NCBI GenBank assembly: GCA_023300375.1 | Contig: JALZWO010000185.1 | Span: forward strand, 1-46,433 | Direction: 5' to 3' | Source of the DNA: Granulosicoccus sp. | GTDB taxonomy: Bacteria; Pseudomonadota; Gammaproteobacteria; Granulosicoccales; Granulosicoccaceae | Length of the DNA stretch: 46,433 bases | Shown: one piece after another, positions 19,865 to 43,149 of the stretch | How the letters are laid out: every line of letters begins with the position of its first letter | How positions within the stretch are numbered: the first letter of the stretch is position 1 | Position numbers and translations under genes: made by a program | Notes under the pieces: model-generated | Told to the model about the DNA's origin: nothing | Database searches by the model: none | The model's input: only the letters and a program-made list of their open reading frames with translations

Positions 19865-20902
19865 ATGGATATTGCTCAGCTATTGACGTTTGGCGTCAAA
19901 AACGGCGCATCGGACATGCATCTCTCTGCAGGGCTTCCTCCGATGATCCGTGTGGACGGCGATATGCGCCGCGTCAATGTGCCTGCCTTGGACCATGCTG
20001 CTGTGCAGGCGATGGTTTACGACATCATGAACGATAAGCAGCGTAAGGACTATGAAGAGAGAATGGAGACTGACTTTTCCTTCGAAATTCCTGACACGGC
20101 TCGATTTCGTGTCAATGCCTTTAACCAGAACCGTGGTTGTGGTGCCGTGTTCAGAACCATCCCAACAGAAATCTTAACGTTGGAACAGCTAGGTGCGCCC
20201 AAAATATTCCAAGAAATTTCAGCGATGCCTCGTGGCATAGTTCTGGTAACGGGGCCAACCGGTTCGGGTAAGTCGACAACACTTGCCGCGATGATGGATT
20301 ACAAGAACGAATCTGAATTGGGACATATCCTCACTATCGAAGATCCCATAGAATTTGTTCACGAAAGCAAAAAATGTTTGATTAATCAGCGCGAAGTTCA
20401 TCGCGATACGTTTGGTTTTGGGCCTGCCCTACGATCGGCTTTGCGTGAAGACCCAGACGTTATTCTGGTGGGTGAGATGCGTGATATGGAAACTATCTCA
20501 CTGGCACTGACCGCTGCGGAAACGGGCCATTTGGTTTTCGGTACCTTGCACACCAGTTCTGCGGCCAAGACGGTCGATCGTATTGTTGATGTGTTTCCTG
20601 GTGGGGAAAAGGCGATGGTGCGCTCGATGTTGTCTGAATCCTTGCGTGCGGTAATTTCGCAAACTCTACTTAAAAAGAAAGGCGGTGGTCGTGTTGCCGC
20701 GCATGAAATCATGCTGGGAACACCAGCGATTCGAAACCTTATTCGTGAAGATAAGGTAGCCCAAATGTATTCAGCTATCCAGACTGGACAAGGTCACGGT
20801 ATGCAAACCCTTGATCAGAACCTTAAAGAGCTCGTTAAACGAGGGACTGTTGATCTAGCAGAAGCACGCAAGAAAGCACAAAACCCTGACAGCCTGATGT
20901 AG
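19865..20902 (+). CDS. pilT: Type IV pilus retraction ATPase PilT
   Basis: The 345-residue hexameric ATPase depolymerises pili and so drives twitching motility. Landmarks: GASDMHLSAGLPPMIRVDGD at the start, Walker A GPTGSGKSTTLAAM (about residues 131-144), Asp box IEDPIEF, Walker B DPDVILVGEMRDMET, His box GTLHTSSAAKTVDRI, and the PilT-specific AIRNLIRED (about 284-292). There is no zinc Cys cluster, which sets it apart from GspE. AAGG lies upstream of the ATG. pilU follows 47 bases later. Confidence 0.96.
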   Translation: MDIAQLLTFGVKNGASDMHLSAGLPPMIRVDGDMRRVNVPALDHAAVQAMVYDIMNDKQRKDYEERMETDFSFEIPDTARFRVNAFNQNRGCGAVFRTIPTEILTLEQLGAPKIFQEISAMPRGIVLVTGPTGSGKSTTLAAMMDYKNESELGHILTIEDPIEFVHESKKCLINQREVHRDTFGFGPALRSALREDPDVILVGEMRDMETISLALTAAETGHLVFGTLHTSSAAKTVDRIVDVFPGGEKAMVRSMLSESLRAVISQTLLKKKGGGRVAAHEIMLGTPAIRNLIREDKVAQMYSAIQTGQGHGMQTLDQNLKELVKRGTVDLAEARKKAQNPDSLM

Positions 20903-20949
20903 GCAGTTGAGTTTATTTTTCAACACAACTCAATTTAGAGGAATTTATA

Positions 20950-22128
20950 ATGGATCTTGAAGTTGCAAAGCGCTTCATGGATGAACTTTTGGTCAGCCTA
21001 TATAAAAAAGGCGGATCAGATCTGTTCATCATAGCTGGTGCTGCACCTTCCATGCGTGTGCATGGAAAGGTGAAGCCGGTTATGGAAAAAAAGCTGTCTG
21101 CGGAACATACGCTGGCACTTGCCCAATGCTTGATGACAGAAAAAGAGCGGGCTGATTTTTCCAAAAGCCGTGAATGCAATTTCGCTATTGCATTGCCTAA
21201 GATTTCAAGATTCCGTGTTAATGCTCTGGTTCAGAGAGGTAGTGCTGGGCTTGTGGTTCGGATAATACCTAATGAAATTCCTTCGTTTGCTGATTTGCAC
21301 ATGCCTGATATTCTCTCTCAGGTTGCGATGACTAAACGAGGTCTGGTGATTTTTGTAGGCGGTACAGGTTCTGGTAAGTCAACGAGCCTAGCTTCAATGG
21401 TTGATTATCGAAATGAGAACTCCAATGGGCATATCATCACCATTGAAGATCCTGTGGAATTTGTGCACCACCATAAGGGCTGTATAGTTACGCAGCGAGA
21501 AGTAGGCACAGATACGGCATCGTTTGAAATCGCTTTGAAAAATACTCTGAGACAAGCACCAGATGTAATACTGATCGGTGAGATACGTGACCAGAGGACC
21601 ATGGAGCACGCCATCGCGTTTGCTGAGACTGGACATCTATGTCTGGCAACACTGCATGCTAACAACACCAATCAGGCGATGGATCGAATTATCAACTTCT
21701 TCCCGGAGTCTCGTCATAAGCAACTACTGCTTGATTTGTCATTAAACGTGAAAGCATTTATTTCGCAACGATTGTTACCCACACCCAGTGGAAAGGGCCG
21801 GCGAGCTGCAGTTGAAGTTCTTCTCAATACGCCACTGATGGCCGACTTGATTCAAAAGGGAGAGATACACGAGATCAAAGCTCTGATGAAGAAAAGTGTT
21901 AATCAAGGTATGCAAACATTTGATCATGCTCTTTTTGATTTGCTAGGACAGAACGCAATCACCATCGAAGAAGCTATGCGAAATGCAGATTCTGTTAACG
22001 ATCTAAGGCTTCGCATCAAGCTAGAAGCTGGTAGCTCTTCAGCGGTTAATGATATTCTTTCTGAGTCAATGAGCCTGGAAGATGAGGACGATGATGAGAA
22101 CCAAAGTCATGGTCGAATGCATGGGTAG
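20950..22128 (+). CDS. pilU: PilT-dependent retraction ATPase PilU
   Basis: The 392-residue PilT paralogue helps retraction under load. Landmarks: GSDLFIIAGAAPSMRVHGKV, Walker A VGGTGSGKSTSLASM (about residues 136-150), IEDPVEFVHHHKGCIVTQREVG, DVILIGEIRDQRTMEHAI, and LATLHANNTNQAMDRIINFFPE, a PilU-typical wording. The acidic C-terminal tail (SLEDEDDDENQSHGRMHG) is longer than in PilT and typical of PilU. GAGGA is well placed before the ATG. The gene ends 40 bases before a strong terminator. Confidence 0.95.
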   Translation: MDLEVAKRFMDELLVSLYKKGGSDLFIIAGAAPSMRVHGKVKPVMEKKLSAEHTLALAQCLMTEKERADFSKSRECNFAIALPKISRFRVNALVQRGSAGLVVRIIPNEIPSFADLHMPDILSQVAMTKRGLVIFVGGTGSGKSTSLASMVDYRNENSNGHIITIEDPVEFVHHHKGCIVTQREVGTDTASFEIALKNTLRQAPDVILIGEIRDQRTMEHAIAFAETGHLCLATLHANNTNQAMDRIINFFPESRHKQLLLDLSLNVKAFISQRLLPTPSGKGRRAAVEVLLNTPLMADLIQKGEIHEIKALMKKSVNQGMQTFDHALFDLLGQNAITIEEAMRNADSVNDLRLRIKLEAGSSSAVNDILSESMSLEDEDDDENQSHGRMHG

Positions 22129-35176: not shown

Positions 35177-35590
35177 ATGAAAGATTCGGCTGAAATCAAT
35201 TCTGTAGAGAAACGAGCGGTGCGTGTTCTGGTCGCTGATGGAAATGCGTCACGTAGACAAACGGCTCAAGCATGGATGGGTGAGGCAGGCTATGAGGTGT
35301 CTGTAGCGGGGGATGGTTTTGACGCGCTGTCCAAAGTGATAGAGGAAGTTCCGGATATTGTATTTGCTAATACGTCAATGACTCGACTCGACGGCTATCA
35401 ATTGTGTTCTTTAATCAAAAGCAATAGCGATTTCAAACTTCTTCCGGTTATCATGTTGGTTAACGATGACATTTTCGCAGGATCTGAGCGCGCAAGTCTC
35501 TCTGGTTGCGATTCTCTGTTGTGTAAGCCTGCTAACGCCCAAGCGTTTGTATCAATAGTCGATCAATTTGTCAGTGTATCCATGTCATAA
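35177..35590 (+). CDS. pilG: PilG-like pseudo-receiver protein
   Basis: The 137-residue product is a CheY-like receiver with clear likeness to PilG (GFDALSKVIEEVPDIVF and TRLDGYQLCSLIKSNSDFKLLPVIML). The phospho-acceptor Asp is replaced by Asn65 (VFANT where PilG has VFVDI). One of the two metal-binding acidic residues is also lost (VADGN where PilG has VIDDS), and the conserved Thr/Ser after strand 4 is changed (IMLVND). The Lys in LCKPA is kept. Normal phosphorylation is therefore unlikely. It is the first gene of the chemosensory cluster; in Pseudomonas PilG stimulates pilus extension and cAMP. Confidence 0.85.
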   Translation: MKDSAEINSVEKRAVRVLVADGNASRRQTAQAWMGEAGYEVSVAGDGFDALSKVIEEVPDIVFANTSMTRLDGYQLCSLIKSNSDFKLLPVIMLVNDDIFAGSERASLSGCDSLLCKPANAQAFVSIVDQFVSVSMS

Positions 35591-35647: not shown

Positions 35648-36133
35648 ATGAATAAACATCTATTTTTTGCTATCGCGGGTCACCGTTATGCCTTGCCGCA
35701 CGAGTACGTAAAAGCTGTACATTCTCAACTATCACTGAGCCCTGTAGTGGGCACACGCCATTGGTTTCTAGGCTTAGCAACATTCGAAGGTAGGTTAATA
35801 CCGGTGACTAATCTAGGGTCTTTTTGCGGATTGACGCCAAGTGAAGGCTGTACTGTCGAGTTAGATCCATTGACCGCTTTGGCCGCTTTAAAAGTTGATA
35901 ACGTTTTCGTGTCTAGTTCTAAAGCTCAAACCCATGTCGCAAATGACGCTGAACACGGTACGTCAAAAAAATTGCCTACATTACCCGGTAATTCAGGAGG
36001 TACTTCTAACGTATTGCGTGAATTTGTAACCGGCGAGCTCGTTAGTGACAAGGGTCAGAATTATCACGTGTTGGATGTCTCATCACTCGTACAATCGGAT
36101 CGTTTCATCAATATAAAGGAAAGTTTTGACTAA
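35648..36133 (+). CDS. pilI: PilI-like CheW adaptor protein
   Basis: The product is a single CheW domain that would couple the receptor PilJ to the kinase ChpA. Typical words are FFAIAGHRYALPHEYVKAV, WFLGLATFEGRLIPVTNLGSF and, near the end, YHVLDVSSLVQSDRFINI. A middle stretch (residues about 95-125, SSSKAQTHVANDAEHGTSKKLPTLPGNSGGTS) is a low-complexity insertion not expected in CheW. The ATG at 35648 (MNKHLFF) is the better start; an alternative upstream at 35639 would add three residues. Its stop shares one base with the pilJ start (TAATG). Confidence 0.8.
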   Translation: MNKHLFFAIAGHRYALPHEYVKAVHSQLSLSPVVGTRHWFLGLATFEGRLIPVTNLGSFCGLTPSEGCTVELDPLTALAALKVDNVFVSSSKAQTHVANDAEHGTSKKLPTLPGNSGGTSNVLREFVTGELVSDKGQNYHVLDVSSLVQSDRFINIKESFD

Positions 36134-37581
36134 TGTCAGATAAGAGAACTGCAGAGAACCAGTCTCGGCTTTTGCTGCCGTTCACACTGCTGGTGCTGTG
36201 TGTACTAGCGCTATTAGTTACATTGTTTGGTTTGTATCGCACAAGTTCCATTGCAGGTGAGCGAGTCGCTGAACTGACGTCAGCTTGGCAGAGCTTCATG
36301 CAAAATGGTGTGCAAGGCTCGGATCTACTGGCAACTGACAGACTTGTGCAAAGTGCAGCGTTGCCGTTTCCAGCTGTCGAATCCGCTGCGCTATGGAGTC
36401 TTGGTATGGCACTTTTAAGCGTTGTGATTCTGGCTTGGTTCGTCTGGGCGTCGCGAGCTGACAAAATTGCGAACTCCGCAATTATTCGGCAGGATTCCGA
36501 TCACGATGCTGCAGCTACTGCCAGCTTGCTTGATGAAATTGCGCCTTTGTTAAGTGGTGATCTCGATGTTAGAGCAACTGCGCGCGAGGGAAGTGCTGGT
36601 GCCTTGGCAGATACGATCAATTTTGTCGTCGATGAGCTGAAGCATCTGGTCTCTTCACAGCTCGCCGCATCCCGAATGTTGAATTCGGTCGTTGATGAAT
36701 CGCAAGTCATTCTTACGGGAATGGAATCGCTAAGCAAAACGCAGTCAGAACAGCTCGCGCAATCATCAAATACCGTTTCAGGCACCAGTCAATCAACAGC
36801 TGCGCTTTCAGCCAGTGCTCTGGACGTGGAATCTGGATCTTCGAAAATCGAATTGTCGCTGAATCAGCTGATAGCCAATGCGTCTCATGGACGGCAGTCT
36901 ATGGATTCAGTGAGAGTTGATGCAGATAACGCTATAGGGCTCGTTCAATCAGTAAACGATCATGCACGCTCGGCGTTGCACGCCGTAATTCGGATTGACG
37001 AATTTGTTGAACACACAGAGCACATGGCAATTAATGCCACACTTCAGTCTTCCTCAGAAAATGCACGCGCAGATTCCTCCGCGTCACGACTTGCAACTCT
37101 TGCCAATGAGGTCAGCACTTTGGCAGAGGAGTTTGGTCGTTCAGTGGAAGATATCAATGTGCTGATGCATGCGGTTTATACGGATACCGCAAACGCGATG
37201 AATTGTCTGCGACGGATGTCCAAGTCAGTTTCTTTACAGATTGAGGAATCAGAAAAGCAATCTCCGCTACTGAATGCGGTTACTGCTCAATCTAGGCTCA
37301 TCAAGTCGAACGTTGCGCTGATTGCTGAGTACGGTGCTTCGCAGAATCGTGAAGTCAACACCATTAGCAAGAGCCTTGACGGAGTTTGTCAGACTGGTCA
37401 TGATAATTCTCGTGCCATGAACGAGGCGCGGCACACACTTGATAAAATGAAAATACTGGCGGCTCAGCTTCGGCAAGACACATCAGAGTTCAAATTGCCA
37501 CAACGCGAGTCTCAGTTGACACATAAGCCTGTTAAAAGTGTTGCGCGAAAGGCTGCAGAACGAGCTGTAATTGATGGCTGA
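36133..37581 (+). CDS. pilJ: PilJ-like receptor with minimal periplasmic part
   Basis: The 482-residue product has two membrane helices (about residues 14-36 and 88-108) with only about 50 periplasmic residues between. Pseudomonas PilJ, about 680 residues, has a large periplasmic sensor there. A HAMP-like region (LSGDLDVRATAREGSAGALADTINFVVDEL, about 138-168) and a helical signalling domain follow. The tip, normally rich in QTN..ALNA and GRGFAVVA, reads HTEHMAINATLQ and ASRLATLANEVSTLAEEF, so it is degenerate but recognisable. It overlaps chpA by 11 bases. No pilK methyltransferase gene follows. Confidence 0.75.
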   Translation: MSDKRTAENQSRLLLPFTLLVLCVLALLVTLFGLYRTSSIAGERVAELTSAWQSFMQNGVQGSDLLATDRLVQSAALPFPAVESAALWSLGMALLSVVILAWFVWASRADKIANSAIIRQDSDHDAAATASLLDEIAPLLSGDLDVRATAREGSAGALADTINFVVDELKHLVSSQLAASRMLNSVVDESQVILTGMESLSKTQSEQLAQSSNTVSGTSQSTAALSASALDVESGSSKIELSLNQLIANASHGRQSMDSVRVDADNAIGLVQSVNDHARSALHAVIRIDEFVEHTEHMAINATLQSSSENARADSSASRLATLANEVSTLAEEFGRSVEDINVLMHAVYTDTANAMNCLRRMSKSVSLQIEESEKQSPLLNAVTAQSRLIKSNVALIAEYGASQNREVNTISKSLDGVCQTGHDNSRAMNEARHTLDKMKILAAQLRQDTSEFKLPQRESQLTHKPVKSVARKAAERAVIDG

Positions 37582-40500
37582 TTTTGAGAATCCACAATTT
37601 GGGCGTTTAAGCGAACAGCCGCCGATGGATGGAGATACGCTAGCGCGTATGCAAATTTCTTGCGTCCGAATCACCGAATGTGTGGCGATGCTCAGGTCAG
37701 GCTCTACAAGCAAGGTTGCTGCTGCTAGTTATCAATCGCTGATTGAAGAGTTGCAACGCTTGCGAAATATGCTCGTGCTGGTAGACAGTGTGGCCATAAT
37801 TCTATTGATTGAGGAACTGCTGCTCGTGCTAAACGCCGATGCGGCATTGATGCCCGCACAAGAACAACAGCAAGTAGAATTATTACAAAGAGCTGCGTCA
37901 AAAATAAGTCAAAAAATAGACTTAATGCAGGACGCATCCAGTCACAATAGTGGATTTTTGTTGCTACCTCTTATCAACGATTGCCGTGCAATCAGAGATG
38001 AGGCTTTATTGTCCGATAAGGTCATGCTGGTCCTAGGTTTGGAACCTTCAGCATTCGTTGTCCAGTCGCCTGATAATCCTCAATGGAGACAGCAGTATGC
38101 ATTGTGGGTCGACTATGCTGCCGAACAGCACACGAGCTTGATGCAAAGGTTGCTGCATTGGTGGCGCAGTCAACAAGGAGAAGGAAGTTCAAAGCCTTTG
38201 ATCAGGCAGCTAAACCGATTTTGCGATATGACCGCTCAACACACGTCGCTTCAACCGCTGACCTCTGTTTTTCGAGCTTGTTCGGTCATAGTGGACGCTG
38301 TTGATAAAGATCTGCTCGAGCATGGGCCGGCCATTCATAGTCTGTTTTCGCAACTTGAACGTCGGATACACAGCTGTGCACGTGGTGAAATCTACGAGGA
38401 TCTCGTACCTGCTGATTTGTTGCGCAATTGTTTATATTACGTGTCTCAAGTGAGCTTGGAAACACCATCCACAACGCAGTTGAGGCGTAGTTTTCGGCTC
38501 GATTGTCTTCGTCAGGTTGGCCGACACTTAAACAATAAAAAGACCCCAGTTATCGATGTTGATTACCATCTGCTAAATGCCGTGCGTGTGTTCATGACTC
38601 GTGAGTCTGCTGTGCTTCGAGCAGATCAGTCTGAACAGGACAGGCCCGCATACGAATTGACTGAACAAAATGTAAAACTATCTGCTGGCAGTCTGGCGCG
38701 GATGCGTATTCGTTTTGCTTCATTAGCACCGTTATTCTCTTTGGTGGCAGGCGCAAATGCCTTGCAAAGCCTTAAAGAGATCAATAATGTGCTGAATACA
38801 TTAGAAGTGTCTGACATAACGTCTAACTCATCAAACGTTAAATCGCTTTTCATCTCTTTGTTCGAGTTGGACAATTATCTTGAAAACCTAGCCCGTAGTA
38901 CCGTTGTTAGCGGATCGAATTCAAAGTCGGTGCAGCTTGGTACTGCCAGAGAAATTTACCTTGATATTGCCTCAGACGCCTGCCTTGTTGAGGCTCGCAC
39001 AGAGATACAAAATACGTTGTATGCGGTACAGGTGCACTTGCAAAGCGAGAGGCTAGATACACAGCTGGGTACTGTATGGGCCGCCAATTTATTGCAGGCC
39101 AATAATGCGCTTCAAATATTGCCATTGCCTGAAGTGAGCCCGCTACTCCATTCACTGTCTGGCATTGTTGAATTAATTTGTAACGACTCCTACGATTTTA
39201 ATGTAGACCCAGCAAGTGACCGAGAAGCTGAATCGCAATTGAGTCTTATTACATCTGTCGTAGGGATGATCGGTGCAGTCAGTGATTCTTTACATGATTA
39301 CCTGACTTGGGTATTTCAACCTCAGCCGACCGCCAGCCAGTACCTTAATGATGTGGAGGAGCATCTAGACAGATTGTCTCACTCAGTAGCTATTGGTTTA
39401 GGTGACAATTCAGACGAAATGTTTGCTGATGCCCTACAGAATGATTTGTCTTTACCTGATACAGCTAGTTTGACGCTTAATGTTGAAGATCATTTGTTGC
39501 TTGATGATTATCCTCAAGAAGATCAACCTGAACTTGATCGTACCTTGCGAATTGTTTTGAGAGATGAATGCCTTAAACATGTTATGAATCTTGAGCAAAC
39601 AGTGCATCAAACATTGAGCTCAAGCGAGAAAAACTCACAACTACCGGATGAAGCCATGCTTCGTTCATTGCATAATTTAACAAATAGCGCACAAACATTG
39701 AAGGTGTTGGAGATAAATCAAATTGTGCAGCCGCTACAACGGGTGTCGCTATTGCTACATAGACAAGGCAAAGTTTTTGATAGCAAGGATACTCAGTTTA
39801 TAGGGGTGTTGGTTGATGTCTTGCGCAAAGGATTGATGTCTGTAGAAGTCAATGAAAATCAGATGATTATTCCAATATCAGATGTCGAAGATCGTCTAAG
39901 TGAATTTGTGGTTAGACTAATTCCTGGTGAGCAAGGTAAAAGTAAACCGTTGCATGCAGGCCCCCATCACATCGTCAGTGAAAGTGCTAACGAATCTGGT
40001 GCTAGTTATGGGTCTCCACTAGAAGAGCGGTTTGATAGTGAAGCTTCAGAATTGCTAAATTCCTTACGAGTCATTATTGGCAACCCAGAATTCAATACGC
40101 AATCTGTTCAATCTGCTCTCTTTGTTCTACACACGTTAAAAGGTAGTGCCAGGATGTTGGGAGTAGTGCCCATAAGCGACTGTACACATAAGCTCGAATC
40201 GCAGGTTATGAAACTGAGCAGTGTTGATGAACAGTTGCTTGCGTTAAGGGTGGGGCACCAAACGATGCATAGTTATCTGTTGCAAGTAAATTCACGACGA
40301 GCAACTAGCGTCGAATCACCTCCATTCGATATGAGTACCCACAAGTTCGACGACAGTCAGACGATTGCGGGCGTTCGTCGTGCAGATGATCTGCTAGATG
40401 TGGTCACCGAGCTAAACGTGGTGCAAGCCCGATTGAGCGACGAGCTCACACGACTCAGTTCAGCTATTCGCGACTTTGAGAACACCACCACGCGCTGGCA

Positions 40501-42040
40501 GCAGATACAGACTTCGAAGGCAGCAAGTGTTTATTCGGAAGCGATTGAGATAAATGCCGATATTGATGCAACACGTACAGGTTTGCGCAATTCGATACAA
40601 AGAGCGGTAAGACAGCAACAAAGTGCAAGCAGAGTGAGTGCAGATTTACAGCAGGCGATTGTGCATTCCCGCCTCATTCGTTTTGGTGAAATTCGCAATC
40701 GACTTGAAGAAACCATCGAGGAGCTTGCGCGAACGTGTGGGGTCTCTGTGCGGTTAGAAATTGAAGGGGGCGAACTCATGATAGATAAAACGCTCTTTAA
40801 GCAACTACACGCTCCACTTGAGCATTTAACGCGCAACGCTGTGGTGCATGGTATTGAGCGAGCAGAGGAACGTCTAAGTAAATCGAAGTCTGGTATCGGC
40901 TGTATCCGACTGTCCGCACTGGTAGATAGGGACTCTTTAGTCGTGAAATTTGCTGACGATGGACGAGGACTCGACAAAGAAAACTTTAACAAAATGTTGT
41001 CTGAACGTGGACAAGACGCTCCAGACAGTCATCAAGCTCTGCAAGACTTACTGTTAAGCCCGGGTTTTTCAACCGTTCCAAAATCTGATTCGCTCTCGGG
41101 CCACGGGCTCGGTCTGTCTGCGGTAGCTGCAGCAGTGATTCGATTGGAAGGATTGCTTAGTTTGGATGTTGATGTGAGCGATGGCTTCTCTATCACGATG
41201 CAGATTCCACAAAAAATCGTTGTGACTCCTGTGCTCATTGTCGAGTGCGAATCGAGTTTGTATGGCTTACCTCTAGACAGAGTGCAGTCAGTGATGTTGG
41301 ATAAATCTGGGACTGTTGCGATGAGTCCGAATGAAAAGGCAACTCCTGTTAGCCTTGCGCGGCTTTTGGGGGCACAAAGCGATGTGAGCTGGCACTCTAA
41401 CGCGGGCTTGAAGCGGCCAACAGTGACAGTACAGGCAGCCGGCCATAGCAGAATCATTGCTGTCGATAAAATCATTGGCTATCGTGAGCTAGTTGTTCAG
41501 CCGTTAGGATCGCAATTGTCAATGCTCAGACATTTCAGTGCTGGCAGTGTGCTTCCTACGGGGCAGCAAGTTCTGATTCTGCATCCAGACTCACTTGACT
41601 TTGATCAAAGCCAGCGACCAGCTTGGGTATCGCATTCTGTTCACGGGTTCAAGAATCCGATTGCATTGGTGGTGGACGATTCTCCCACTACACGCTCTCT
41701 GGTACAAAATATGTTGGAAGAGCGAGGGATTGAAGCCCATGTCTGTAAAGACGGTTTGGAGGCTCTCAAGCAACTTCCTGACACGAGGCCTGACATCATG
41801 ATCGTGGATTTAGAAATGCCCAGGTTGGATGGCTTTGCGCTGATGCGACGTATCTATGAGGATTTTCCTGATGCTGGCATCAGAATTGTTGCGATTAGCA
41901 GTGGAAGTGATGATTCTCGCAAGATGCTAGCGAAAAAATTAGGTGCTGTTGCCTATTTAAAAAAACCCTATACAAGTCAACAATTTGATTCCGCAATAGA
42001 AGCGGCAGGAATCAGCCTTCCGGATCTTACAATTGCTTGA
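37571..42040 (+). CDS. chpA: ChpA-like hybrid chemotaxis histidine kinase
   Basis: The 1489-residue product has a long N-terminal helical region with PilL/ChpA-like Hpt modules, a degenerate Hpt around His701 (LHNLTNSAQTL, no Lys-Gly), and a canonical Hpt at His854 (LHTLKGSARMLG). A coiled-coil dimerisation region follows, then a HATPase domain with N-box TRNAVVHGIE (Asn about 1089), G1 FADDGRGLD and G2 GHGLGLSAVAA. Next come a CheW domain (about 1220-1350) and a C-terminal receiver (about 1365-1485) with VVDDS, phospho-acceptor Asp1413 in MIVDLEMPRLDG and the Lys in LKKPY. Pseudomonas ChpA is about 2470 residues with many Hpt domains, so this form is much reduced. It probably controls pilus retraction or extension. 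Confidence 0.9.
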   Translation: MMADFENPQFGRLSEQPPMDGDTLARMQISCVRITECVAMLRSGSTSKVAAASYQSLIEELQRLRNMLVLVDSVAIILLIEELLLVLNADAALMPAQEQQQVELLQRAASKISQKIDLMQDASSHNSGFLLLPLINDCRAIRDEALLSDKVMLVLGLEPSAFVVQSPDNPQWRQQYALWVDYAAEQHTSLMQRLLHWWRSQQGEGSSKPLIRQLNRFCDMTAQHTSLQPLTSVFRACSVIVDAVDKDLLEHGPAIHSLFSQLERRIHSCARGEIYEDLVPADLLRNCLYYVSQVSLETPSTTQLRRSFRLDCLRQVGRHLNNKKTPVIDVDYHLLNAVRVFMTRESAVLRADQSEQDRPAYELTEQNVKLSAGSLARMRIRFASLAPLFSLVAGANALQSLKEINNVLNTLEVSDITSNSSNVKSLFISLFELDNYLENLARSTVVSGSNSKSVQLGTAREIYLDIASDACLVEARTEIQNTLYAVQVHLQSERLDTQLGTVWAANLLQANNALQILPLPEVSPLLHSLSGIVELICNDSYDFNVDPASDREAESQLSLITSVVGMIGAVSDSLHDYLTWVFQPQPTASQYLNDVEEHLDRLSHSVAIGLGDNSDEMFADALQNDLSLPDTASLTLNVEDHLLLDDYPQEDQPELDRTLRIVLRDECLKHVMNLEQTVHQTLSSSEKNSQLPDEAMLRSLHNLTNSAQTLKVLEINQIVQPLQRVSLLLHRQGKVFDSKDTQFIGVLVDVLRKGLMSVEVNENQMIIPISDVEDRLSEFVVRLIPGEQGKSKPLHAGPHHIVSESANESGASYGSPLEERFDSEASELLNSLRVIIGNPEFNTQSVQSALFVLHTLKGSARMLGVVPISDCTHKLESQVMKLSSVDEQLLALRVGHQTMHSYLLQVNSRRATSVESPPFDMSTHKFDDSQTIAGVRRADDLLDVVTELNVVQARLSDELTRLSSAIRDFENTTTRWQQIQTSKAASVYSEAIEINADIDATRTGLRNSIQRAVRQQQSASRVSADLQQAIVHSRLIRFGEIRNRLEETIEELARTCGVSVRLEIEGGELMIDKTLFKQLHAPLEHLTRNAVVHGIERAEERLSKSKSGIGCIRLSALVDRDSLVVKFADDGRGLDKENFNKMLSERGQDAPDSHQALQDLLLSPGFSTVPKSDSLSGHGLGLSAVAAAVIRLEGLLSLDVDVSDGFSITMQIPQKIVVTPVLIVECESSLYGLPLDRVQSVMLDKSGTVAMSPNEKATPVSLARLLGAQSDVSWHSNAGLKRPTVTVQAAGHSRIIAVDKIIGYRELVVQPLGSQLSMLRHFSAGSVLPTGQQVLILHPDSLDFDQSQRPAWVSHSVHGFKNPIALVVDDSPTTRSLVQNMLEERGIEAHVCKDGLEALKQLPDTRPDIMIVDLEMPRLDGFALMRRIYEDFPDAGIRIVAISSGSDDSRKMLAKKLGAVAYLKKPYTSQQFDSAIEAAGISLPDLTIA

Positions 42041-42123
42041 ATGAGTGGCTCGTTATTTATTTCGAATAGTTATGCGACGCTAGGGTATAAAGAACGCTAC
42101 TTTAATTTTAAGGCGAACACTTA

Positions 42124-43149
42124 ATGCGTATCGGTATTATCGGCGGCTCTGGTTACACAGGAGTCGAATTGCTTCGATTACTTTGTGTCAGAAGTGACAT
42201 TGAAATTGTCTTCATTAGTTCTCGAGCGCAAGCTGGTACGCCAGTGAGCGATCTGTTTCCGAGTTTGCGTGGGCATGTCGATCTGGCATTTTCTCACCCT
42301 GATCAGATTGCTAGCTCGAAGTGCGATCTGGTGTTCTTCGCGACTCCGAATGGCACAGCTATGCATCAGGCCAGAGCTTTACTTGATCAAGGGACAAAGC
42401 TGATCGATCTGTCTGCCGACTTTCGTCTCAAGGATGTAGCAGTGTGGGAAAAGTGGTACGGGATGACCCACGCTAGCCCTGAATTGATAGATGAGTCAGT
42501 GTATGGGCTGCCCGAAGTACATCGCGAAAGCATTCGGTCGGCGCATCTCGTTGCAAATCCTGGGTGCTATCCCACTGCGGTGCAGCTTGGCTTTATGCCT
42601 TTGCTTGAGGCAGGTGTTGTTGATTCACAATCGCTCATTGCTGATGTTAAATCAGGAATAACAGGCGCGGGTAGAAGCGCATCCGTAGCTAACTTGTTAG
42701 CTGAGGCCGCAGATAGTTTCAAAGCGTATGCGGTGCAAGGGCATCGTCATCTTCCCGAGATTGAGCAGGGCCTTCAATCGATGACAACAGGCTCGATACA
42801 ACTCACTTTTACGCCTCATCTGCTACCCATTATTCGTGGCATTCATGCCACCTTATATGCTCCACTGAATACCGAAGTTGACTTGCAAGCACTGTTTGAT
42901 CGTCGCTATGAGAACGAGCCCTTTGTCGATGTGCTGCCGAGTGGCTCACATCCTGAAACACGTTCCGTGAGAAGTACCAATGTGTGCCGACTAGCCGTTC
43001 ATCAGCCACAAGGCCGGGGGATGGCAGTTGTGCTTGCGGTTGAAGACAACTTGGTAAAGGGTGCTGCAGGTCAGGCAATTCAGAATATGAACTTGATGCT
43101 CGGTTTGCCGGAAACCTCTGGACTCATTCTGCCGGCTATCATGCCCTGA
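42124..43149 (+). CDS. argC: N-acetyl-gamma-glutamyl-phosphate reductase
   Basis: ArgC performs the third step of arginine synthesis. The 341-residue product has the Rossmann start [17 protein letters not shown], the active-site Cys in [16 protein letters not shown] (about residue 152), [12 protein letters not shown], and the His in [16 protein letters not shown]. All are intact and the length is normal. AAGGCG upstream of the ATG may serve as the ribosome binding site. It stands between chpA and erpA without tight coupling. Confidence 0.96.

Follow-up and report, generated by a model that had tools for sequence, protein, structure and literature searches.

A PilG orthologue lacking its phospho-acceptor aspartate is maintained at the head of a Chp operon in Granulosicoccus

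PilG, a small signalling protein, normally acts as a phosphorylation-operated switch of bacterial type IV pili in the Chp chemosensory system. The first gene of the Chp operon in the analysed DNA, a stretch of 46,433 nucleotides from Granulosicoccus sp. (the window), encodes a pseudo-receiver derived from PilG, and its status as a pseudo-receiver is firm. A sequence-only reading of the same DNA had already proposed such a protein. We can extend this claim, since the pseudo-receiver is maintained by selection and is common to the closest relative, the sister species G008. By analogy with known systems, we favour with a probability of roughly 0.5 a folded PilG adaptor that would work independently of phosphorylation through a kept face, with the phosphoryl groups ending in the receiver of ChpA; this mode of output is one that we infer.

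A PilG receiver with a broken active site

The pilG reading frame starts with an ATG at 35177 and its stop codon ends at 35590, giving 137 codons on the (+) strand. The gene and the codons discussed below are:

35177-35590, (+) strand: PilG orthologue, an Asp-less stand-alone receiver (pseudo-receiver) of 137 aa (Pfam, alignment, AlphaFold2 model)
35240-35242, (+) strand: codon 22, GGA = Gly, acidic position DD2, where the sister species G008 has Glu (alignment, codon comparison)
35369-35371, (+) strand: codon 65, AAT = Asn, phospho-acceptor position, AAC = Asn in G008 (alignment, codon comparison)
35384-35425, (+) strand: codons 70-83, RLDGYQLCSLIKSN, loop and helix alpha3, a PilG-typical segment with all strictly conserved positions kept (conservation, AlphaFold2 model)
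35459-35461, (+) strand: codon 95, GTT = Val, Ser/Thr switch position, Val also in G008 (alignment, codon comparison)
35525-35527, (+) strand: codon 117, AAG = Lys, conserved active-site Lys, retained (alignment, codon comparison)

The protein matches the Pfam family Response_reg (PF00072) at residues 17-128 with 50 bits (cut-off 30.2) and is predicted to fold like CheY. The AlphaFold2 model was computed from an input of eight sequences, and its alignment came from a related-locus search of genome contigs that returned distant receivers only; it has a pLDDT of 87 and a pTM of 0.82 and consists of five strands and five helices in alternation. Foldseek matched the model to CheY, RpaA, PleD and FrzS (2i6f). 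In the model, residue 65 lies at the end of strand 3. Of the Asp residues nearby, Asp60 precedes strand 3 and Asp72 follows the loop, so that neither is at the acceptor site.

Synteny and similarity identify the 137-aa receiver as the PilG orthologue by descent. The gene takes the operon-head place adjoining gshB, the nearest kin of the protein are PilGs, and each genome has one copy. The best matches in the genomes of the genus are the PilGs at the syntenic place, with 36-44% identity. No second PilG was found elsewhere in the genome of the window, a fragmented assembly of 247 contigs; the search gave a paralogue of 30% identity at best, and a canonical PilG copy at another place was therefore rejected. 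A promoter scan at the locus returned fewer sites than the shuffled sequences did.

In an alignment with 40 relatives, the active site is composed of Asp21 (DD1), Gly22 (DD2), Asn65 (acceptor), Val95 (Ser/Thr switch) and Lys117. Asp21 and Lys117-Pro118 are retained. The sequence-only reading had correctly assigned Asn65 to the acceptor and Gly22 to the acidic pair, and the change that it saw at the switch position is Val95. Because the PF00072 match and the predicted CheY-like fold are combined with a quintet broken at D, DD2 and T, the protein belongs to the pseudo-receivers. Together with the operon order, this supports the earlier view that the first gene of a Chp-type operon encodes a pseudo-receiver derived from PilG. 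The set of a phosphorylatable Asp, an acidic pair, Ser/Thr and Lys is incomplete; judged from its residues, the protein is an orthologue of PilG that no longer qualifies as a PilG-type phospho-receiver. Further changes affect S23, I66, P69, S96, F101, D102, A104, R107 and F119, all of them positions with a conservation of 92% or more among canonical PilGs.

The nearest relative, the PilG of G008, is 82% identical and has Asn65 and Val95, with Glu22 where the window has Gly22. Asn65 is encoded by AAT in the window and by AAC in G008, so that Asn was kept across a synonymous change. An Asp occupies the acceptor column in 39 of the 41 aligned PilGs, including that of the related genome G026, and 23 of these 39 are from the same genus. 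The survey of relatives for Asn, which had been proposed earlier, thus gave a divided answer: the sister species has it, whereas the more distant PilGs (~36-44% identity) have Asp. The whole class was scanned at the DNA level for the motif (D or N)-I-M-M-P-R-L-D-G-Y-Q in a draw of 369 genomes. The PilG motif was present in 151 of them, and all matches listed had GAY (Asp) and none AAY, which is a lower bound on the variation since only PilGs in which the remaining motif is intact can be picked up by the scan.

The trait is known from two genomes only, both fragmented assemblies (247 and ~150 contigs), and the fragmentation of the source assembly would agree with a sequencing or assembly error or with a mutation of a single strain. 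We rejected this explanation as hardly conceivable, because G008 is a separate genome with a protein identity of 82% and has Asn at the same column by the other codon, in addition to Val95. A different reading takes Asn65 as a slow timer that is deamidated to Asp after synthesis, so that the aged protein becomes phosphorylatable. The reversion of Asn to Asp has been reported in a receiver and discussed for Asn pseudo-receivers (PMC4395418). However, an Asp at position 65 would still be without its partners, since both species have Val at the switch position and the window has Gly at DD2. In addition, Asn65 precedes Thr and not Gly, which is a slow context for deamidation. The timer is thus very improbable.

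Selection on pilG and the order of the changes

Purifying selection maintains the pseudo-receiver gene. Between the window and G008, pilG has a dN of 0.092, a dS of 0.586 and an omega of 0.158 (bootstrap 95% 0.09-0.26). The two proteins differ at 24 amino acids, where ~93 differences are expected without selection. In neutral simulations of pilG a stop codon was acquired in 99%, whereas no stop was observed. Since omega is 0.158 and the frame is intact in two species, we conclude that pilG is maintained as a functional gene and is not a decaying copy.

The clade was placed with the trees of GshB and ChpA, the latter a quick one, since the long branches of the PilG tree make it an unreliable guide when used alone. 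In both trees the genome of the window (G000) and G008 are sisters and G026 comes next. The stem leading to the two sisters measures 3.98 for PilG, 1.32 for ChpA and 0.28 for GshB, and the PilG tips are short. These branch lengths indicate that PilG changed rapidly at first and was constrained thereafter. A long stem with short tips argues against a simple decay.

The changes were counted over 41 columns whose conservation among 38 canonical PilGs is 90% or more. With a grouping of residues that was chosen after the data were seen, 13 of 13 strict columns are kept in both species in residues 70-90 (RLDGYQ-C-LIK-N-P) and 1 of 7 in residues 95-107 (SS-D-FD-A-R). The other strict columns lost in both species are DD2, S23, D65, I66, P69 and F119. 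Helix 4 differs from PilG, yet 86% of it is kept between G000 and G008. The PilG of G026 has S23N and S96N in common with the pair, but retains D, DD, Ser and Lys. Since these two substitutions occur there together with a full active site, the comparison suggests that surface changes preceded the loss of the acceptor.

The reduced Chp operon

The order of the genes is as in the relatives, with gshB divergent, followed by the genes for the receiver, a CheW-like protein, a short MCP-like protein and a ChpA-like hybrid kinase:

35648-36133, (+) strand: CheW-like adaptor (PilI position), 161-164 aa depending on the start (PF01584 42.5 bits, operon position)
36133-37581, (+) strand: short MCP-like receptor (PilJ position), 482 aa, with the hairpin tip EHTEHMAINATLQSS diverged (PF00015 27.4 bits, cut-off 34.6; alignment)
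37571-42040, (+) strand: ChpA-like hybrid kinase, 1489 aa, with Hpt domains (the last HTLKGSAR), HATPase, a CheW-like domain and a C-terminal receiver (Pfam, alignment)
41666-42004, (+) strand: complete C-terminal receiver of ChpA (VVDDS, MIVDLEMPRLDG, SS, KKPY; PF00072 81.8 bits, alignment)

ChpA has retained the HTLKGSAR of the last Hpt, the N-box, DDGRG, GHGLGLS and the full C-terminal receiver. The latter is the sole complete receiver left in this operon and could take over the phosphoryl group. At residue 700 of ChpA the penultimate Hpt motif HTLTGSA is changed to HNLTNSA in G000 and G008, with the His kept and the Gly lost. In the alignment of the receptors, the hairpin tip is EHTEHMAINATLQSS in G000 and G008 versus KRTDLLALNATIKAS in G023, and the MCPsignal match is below the Pfam cut-off in G000 and G008. 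With the altered tip (window 36133-37581 and L055:9811-11259), the coupling to CheW/ChpA may differ too.

The pilH gene is absent from the operon throughout a subclade of 12 genomes that contains the window (L055-L059, L063, L064, L069, L071, L074, L083 and the window). In six subclade genomes no PilH orthologue was found genome-wide. A PilH located elsewhere was rejected because the best matches reached only 32-37% and were to other regulators; in PilH-bearing species the identity is 68-99%. The receptors of the subclade are short, with 482-503 aa versus 590-960 in most other aligned genomes. Taken as a whole, the Chp operon is atypical: PilH is missing, the receptor is short and its tip altered, and ChpA contains a second receiver that is complete. 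In most genomes of the PilH-less subclade, a gene for 725-822 aa lies between chpA and argC, with a Beta_propel domain (PF09826) in L064 (L064:8920-11388); this gene is absent from the window (42040-42124), G008 and G026.

The G026 operon (L071, reverse strand) has a weakened ChpA receiver (VDN, the loop MPxLDG lost, DD2 lost) and a complete PilG active site. By its motifs, the G026 lineage is a partial opposite of the G000/G008 lineage. Each of the two lineages retains one receiver with a fully canonical sequence, two lineages being too few for a rule.

PilB, PilT and PilU (above the curated cut-offs) and FimV are present in the genome, so that a pilus on which PilG could act probably exists. 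Loss of the pilus as the cause of the PilG change was rejected since the three motor proteins are there. A pilT gene and a second gene of the pilT family (in the pilU position) are located at 19871-21999 of the window, ~13 kb upstream of the Chp operon. Other CheW-domain clusters in the same genome encode a CheA-like protein and CheW (contig C226) and a 922-aa double-CheW protein and CheW (C59). A triple-CheW protein of 564 aa is encoded on C76, and a CheW-domain protein of 325 aa, perhaps a CheV, on C130.

The features of the operon have to be weighed against a decay of the whole Chp module in this lineage, in which the PilG acceptor would have been lost as the pathway no longer matters and pilG itself would be disappearing. 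The diverged hairpin tip with the MCPsignal match below the cut-off, the HNLTNSA of the penultimate Hpt, and the missing PilH and short receptor of the subclade are in line with decay, as is the DD2 position that differs between the two species (Gly versus Glu). The Chp pathway as a whole also evolves faster than its neighbours: in the two species omega is 0.09-0.12 for the remaining operon genes and 0.03-0.05 for gshB, tonB and argC, and the omega of pilG is 3-5 times above these neighbouring housekeeping genes. The raised omega, the altered receptor tip and the changed Hpt would fit a weaker selection on the whole module. However, at a dS of 0.6-1.3 neither species has a stop in any of the four reading frames, which are all intact, and omega is 0.09-0.16 for each operon gene. 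The catalytic motifs and the receiver of ChpA are complete, the pilus motors are present, and Asn65 stayed Asn through the synonymous change. We consider decay of the module unlikely.

Possible mode of action and known systems

The pseudo-PilG probably serves as a binding partner rather than as a phosphate switch. In the adaptor mechanism that we propose, ChpA would continue to autophosphorylate in the reduced operon, and the phosphoryl group would be passed from the canonical last Hpt (HTLKGSAR) to ChpA's own C-terminal receiver, a putative route. The pseudo-PilG would not take up phosphate in vivo, given Asn65 and Val95 in both species and the loss of DD2 in the window. It may instead bind a pilus or polarity partner via a candidate face formed by the loop and helix alpha3 (RLDGYQ-C-LIK-N). 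Under this model, how active it is would depend on its abundance, its position or the state of the partner, as for the pseudo-receiver of FrzS. A constitutive or protein-binding output, as suggested by the sequence-only reading, would agree with the retained loop and helix 3 and with FrzS as a precedent. The adaptor is favoured because FrzS has lost the same set of residues and because the loop and helix 3 face is kept. Against it stands that helix alpha4, a part of the face used by FrzS, is not kept as in PilG. More tentatively, it is possible that a dedicated regulator gave up phosphorylation and was recast as a fixed adaptor, leaving the kinase-fused receiver as the only phosphate terminal.

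In Pseudomonas aeruginosa, the PilG mutants D58A and D58E behave as a pilG deletion, although ChpA and FimL continue to bring the mutant proteins to the poles (PMC10519157). Recruitment there works without the acceptor and output needs it, and a non-phosphorylatable PilG can simply be inactive, a point against the adaptor. The Hpts 5 and 6 of P. aeruginosa ChpA phosphorylate the ChpA receiver and, more slowly, PilG and PilH (PMC5812489, review). The ChpA receiver can hand the phosphate on to Hpts 2-6 (PMC5812489).

The polar recruitment of the D58 mutants also fits a pseudo-PilG that works inside the complex, where it would bind an Hpt or the receiver of ChpA as a competitor or allosteric tuner, with the output via the ChpA receiver. 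The intact receiver of ChpA agrees with this, and pseudo-receivers have been proposed as binding competitors or heterodimer partners (PMC12632262). Helix alpha1 of the pseudo-PilG has drifted, however: its agreement with the consensus is 14%, where typical PilGs reach 61%, and its contact with ChpA may therefore be weaker or of another kind. Helix alpha1 is the usual contact of a receiver with Hpt domains. A role inside the ChpA complex is conceivable, if rather doubtful.

Pseudo-receivers make up ~6% of bacterial receiver domains, and ~4% of the receivers across life are aspartate-less; although they are common, their modes of action in bacteria are largely unknown (PMC12632262). A search of the open-access literature found no earlier report of a PilG pseudo-receiver. 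The present one arose recently from a well-studied regulator in its own operon, and its canonical close relatives permit a comparison of before and after. It raises the question of whether Chp output has to pass through phosphorylated PilG, as it must in P. aeruginosa.

The window PilG resembles the PilG of the Pil-Chp systems of P. aeruginosa and other Gammaproteobacteria in its place at the operon head by gshB, followed by the genes for a CheW-like protein, an MCP and ChpA. Like canonical PilG it is a stand-alone receiver with the signature DGF-AL and RLDGYQ-C-LIK-N. In contrast to canonical PilG it is without the acceptor Asp, DD2 and Ser/Thr, the helix 4 segment SSKDGLFD-AR-R is replaced, and no PilH is beside it. 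Among Asp-less receivers, RitR of Streptococcus also has an Asn at the acceptor position, the second commonest replacement with 16% of the aspartate-less receivers (PMC4395418). RitR differs in that it regulates by binding DNA and has an output domain, whereas the window PilG consists of a lone receiver encoded in a chemosensory operon.

FrzS of Myxococcus xanthus, which the Foldseek search matched (2i6f), likewise takes part in type IV pilus control and has lost D, DD2 and T and kept K. Its acceptor position is Ala53, DD2 is Ser10, a Gly stands at the Thr position and the Lys is kept, and it functions without Asp phosphorylation (PMC1974792). FrzS binds neither Mg nor BeF3, yet it directs pilus-driven motility (PMC1974792). 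Its alpha3-beta4-alpha4 face binds SgmX, whereby type IV pili are activated (PMC12632262). At the corresponding face of the window PilG, the loop and helix 3 are kept (all strict columns of residues 70-90) and helix 4 is changed. The two proteins share ~21% identity, and FrzS is not orthologous to PilG. It also differs by its long coiled-coil and by a switch Tyr that it retains, where the window PilG has a Leu.
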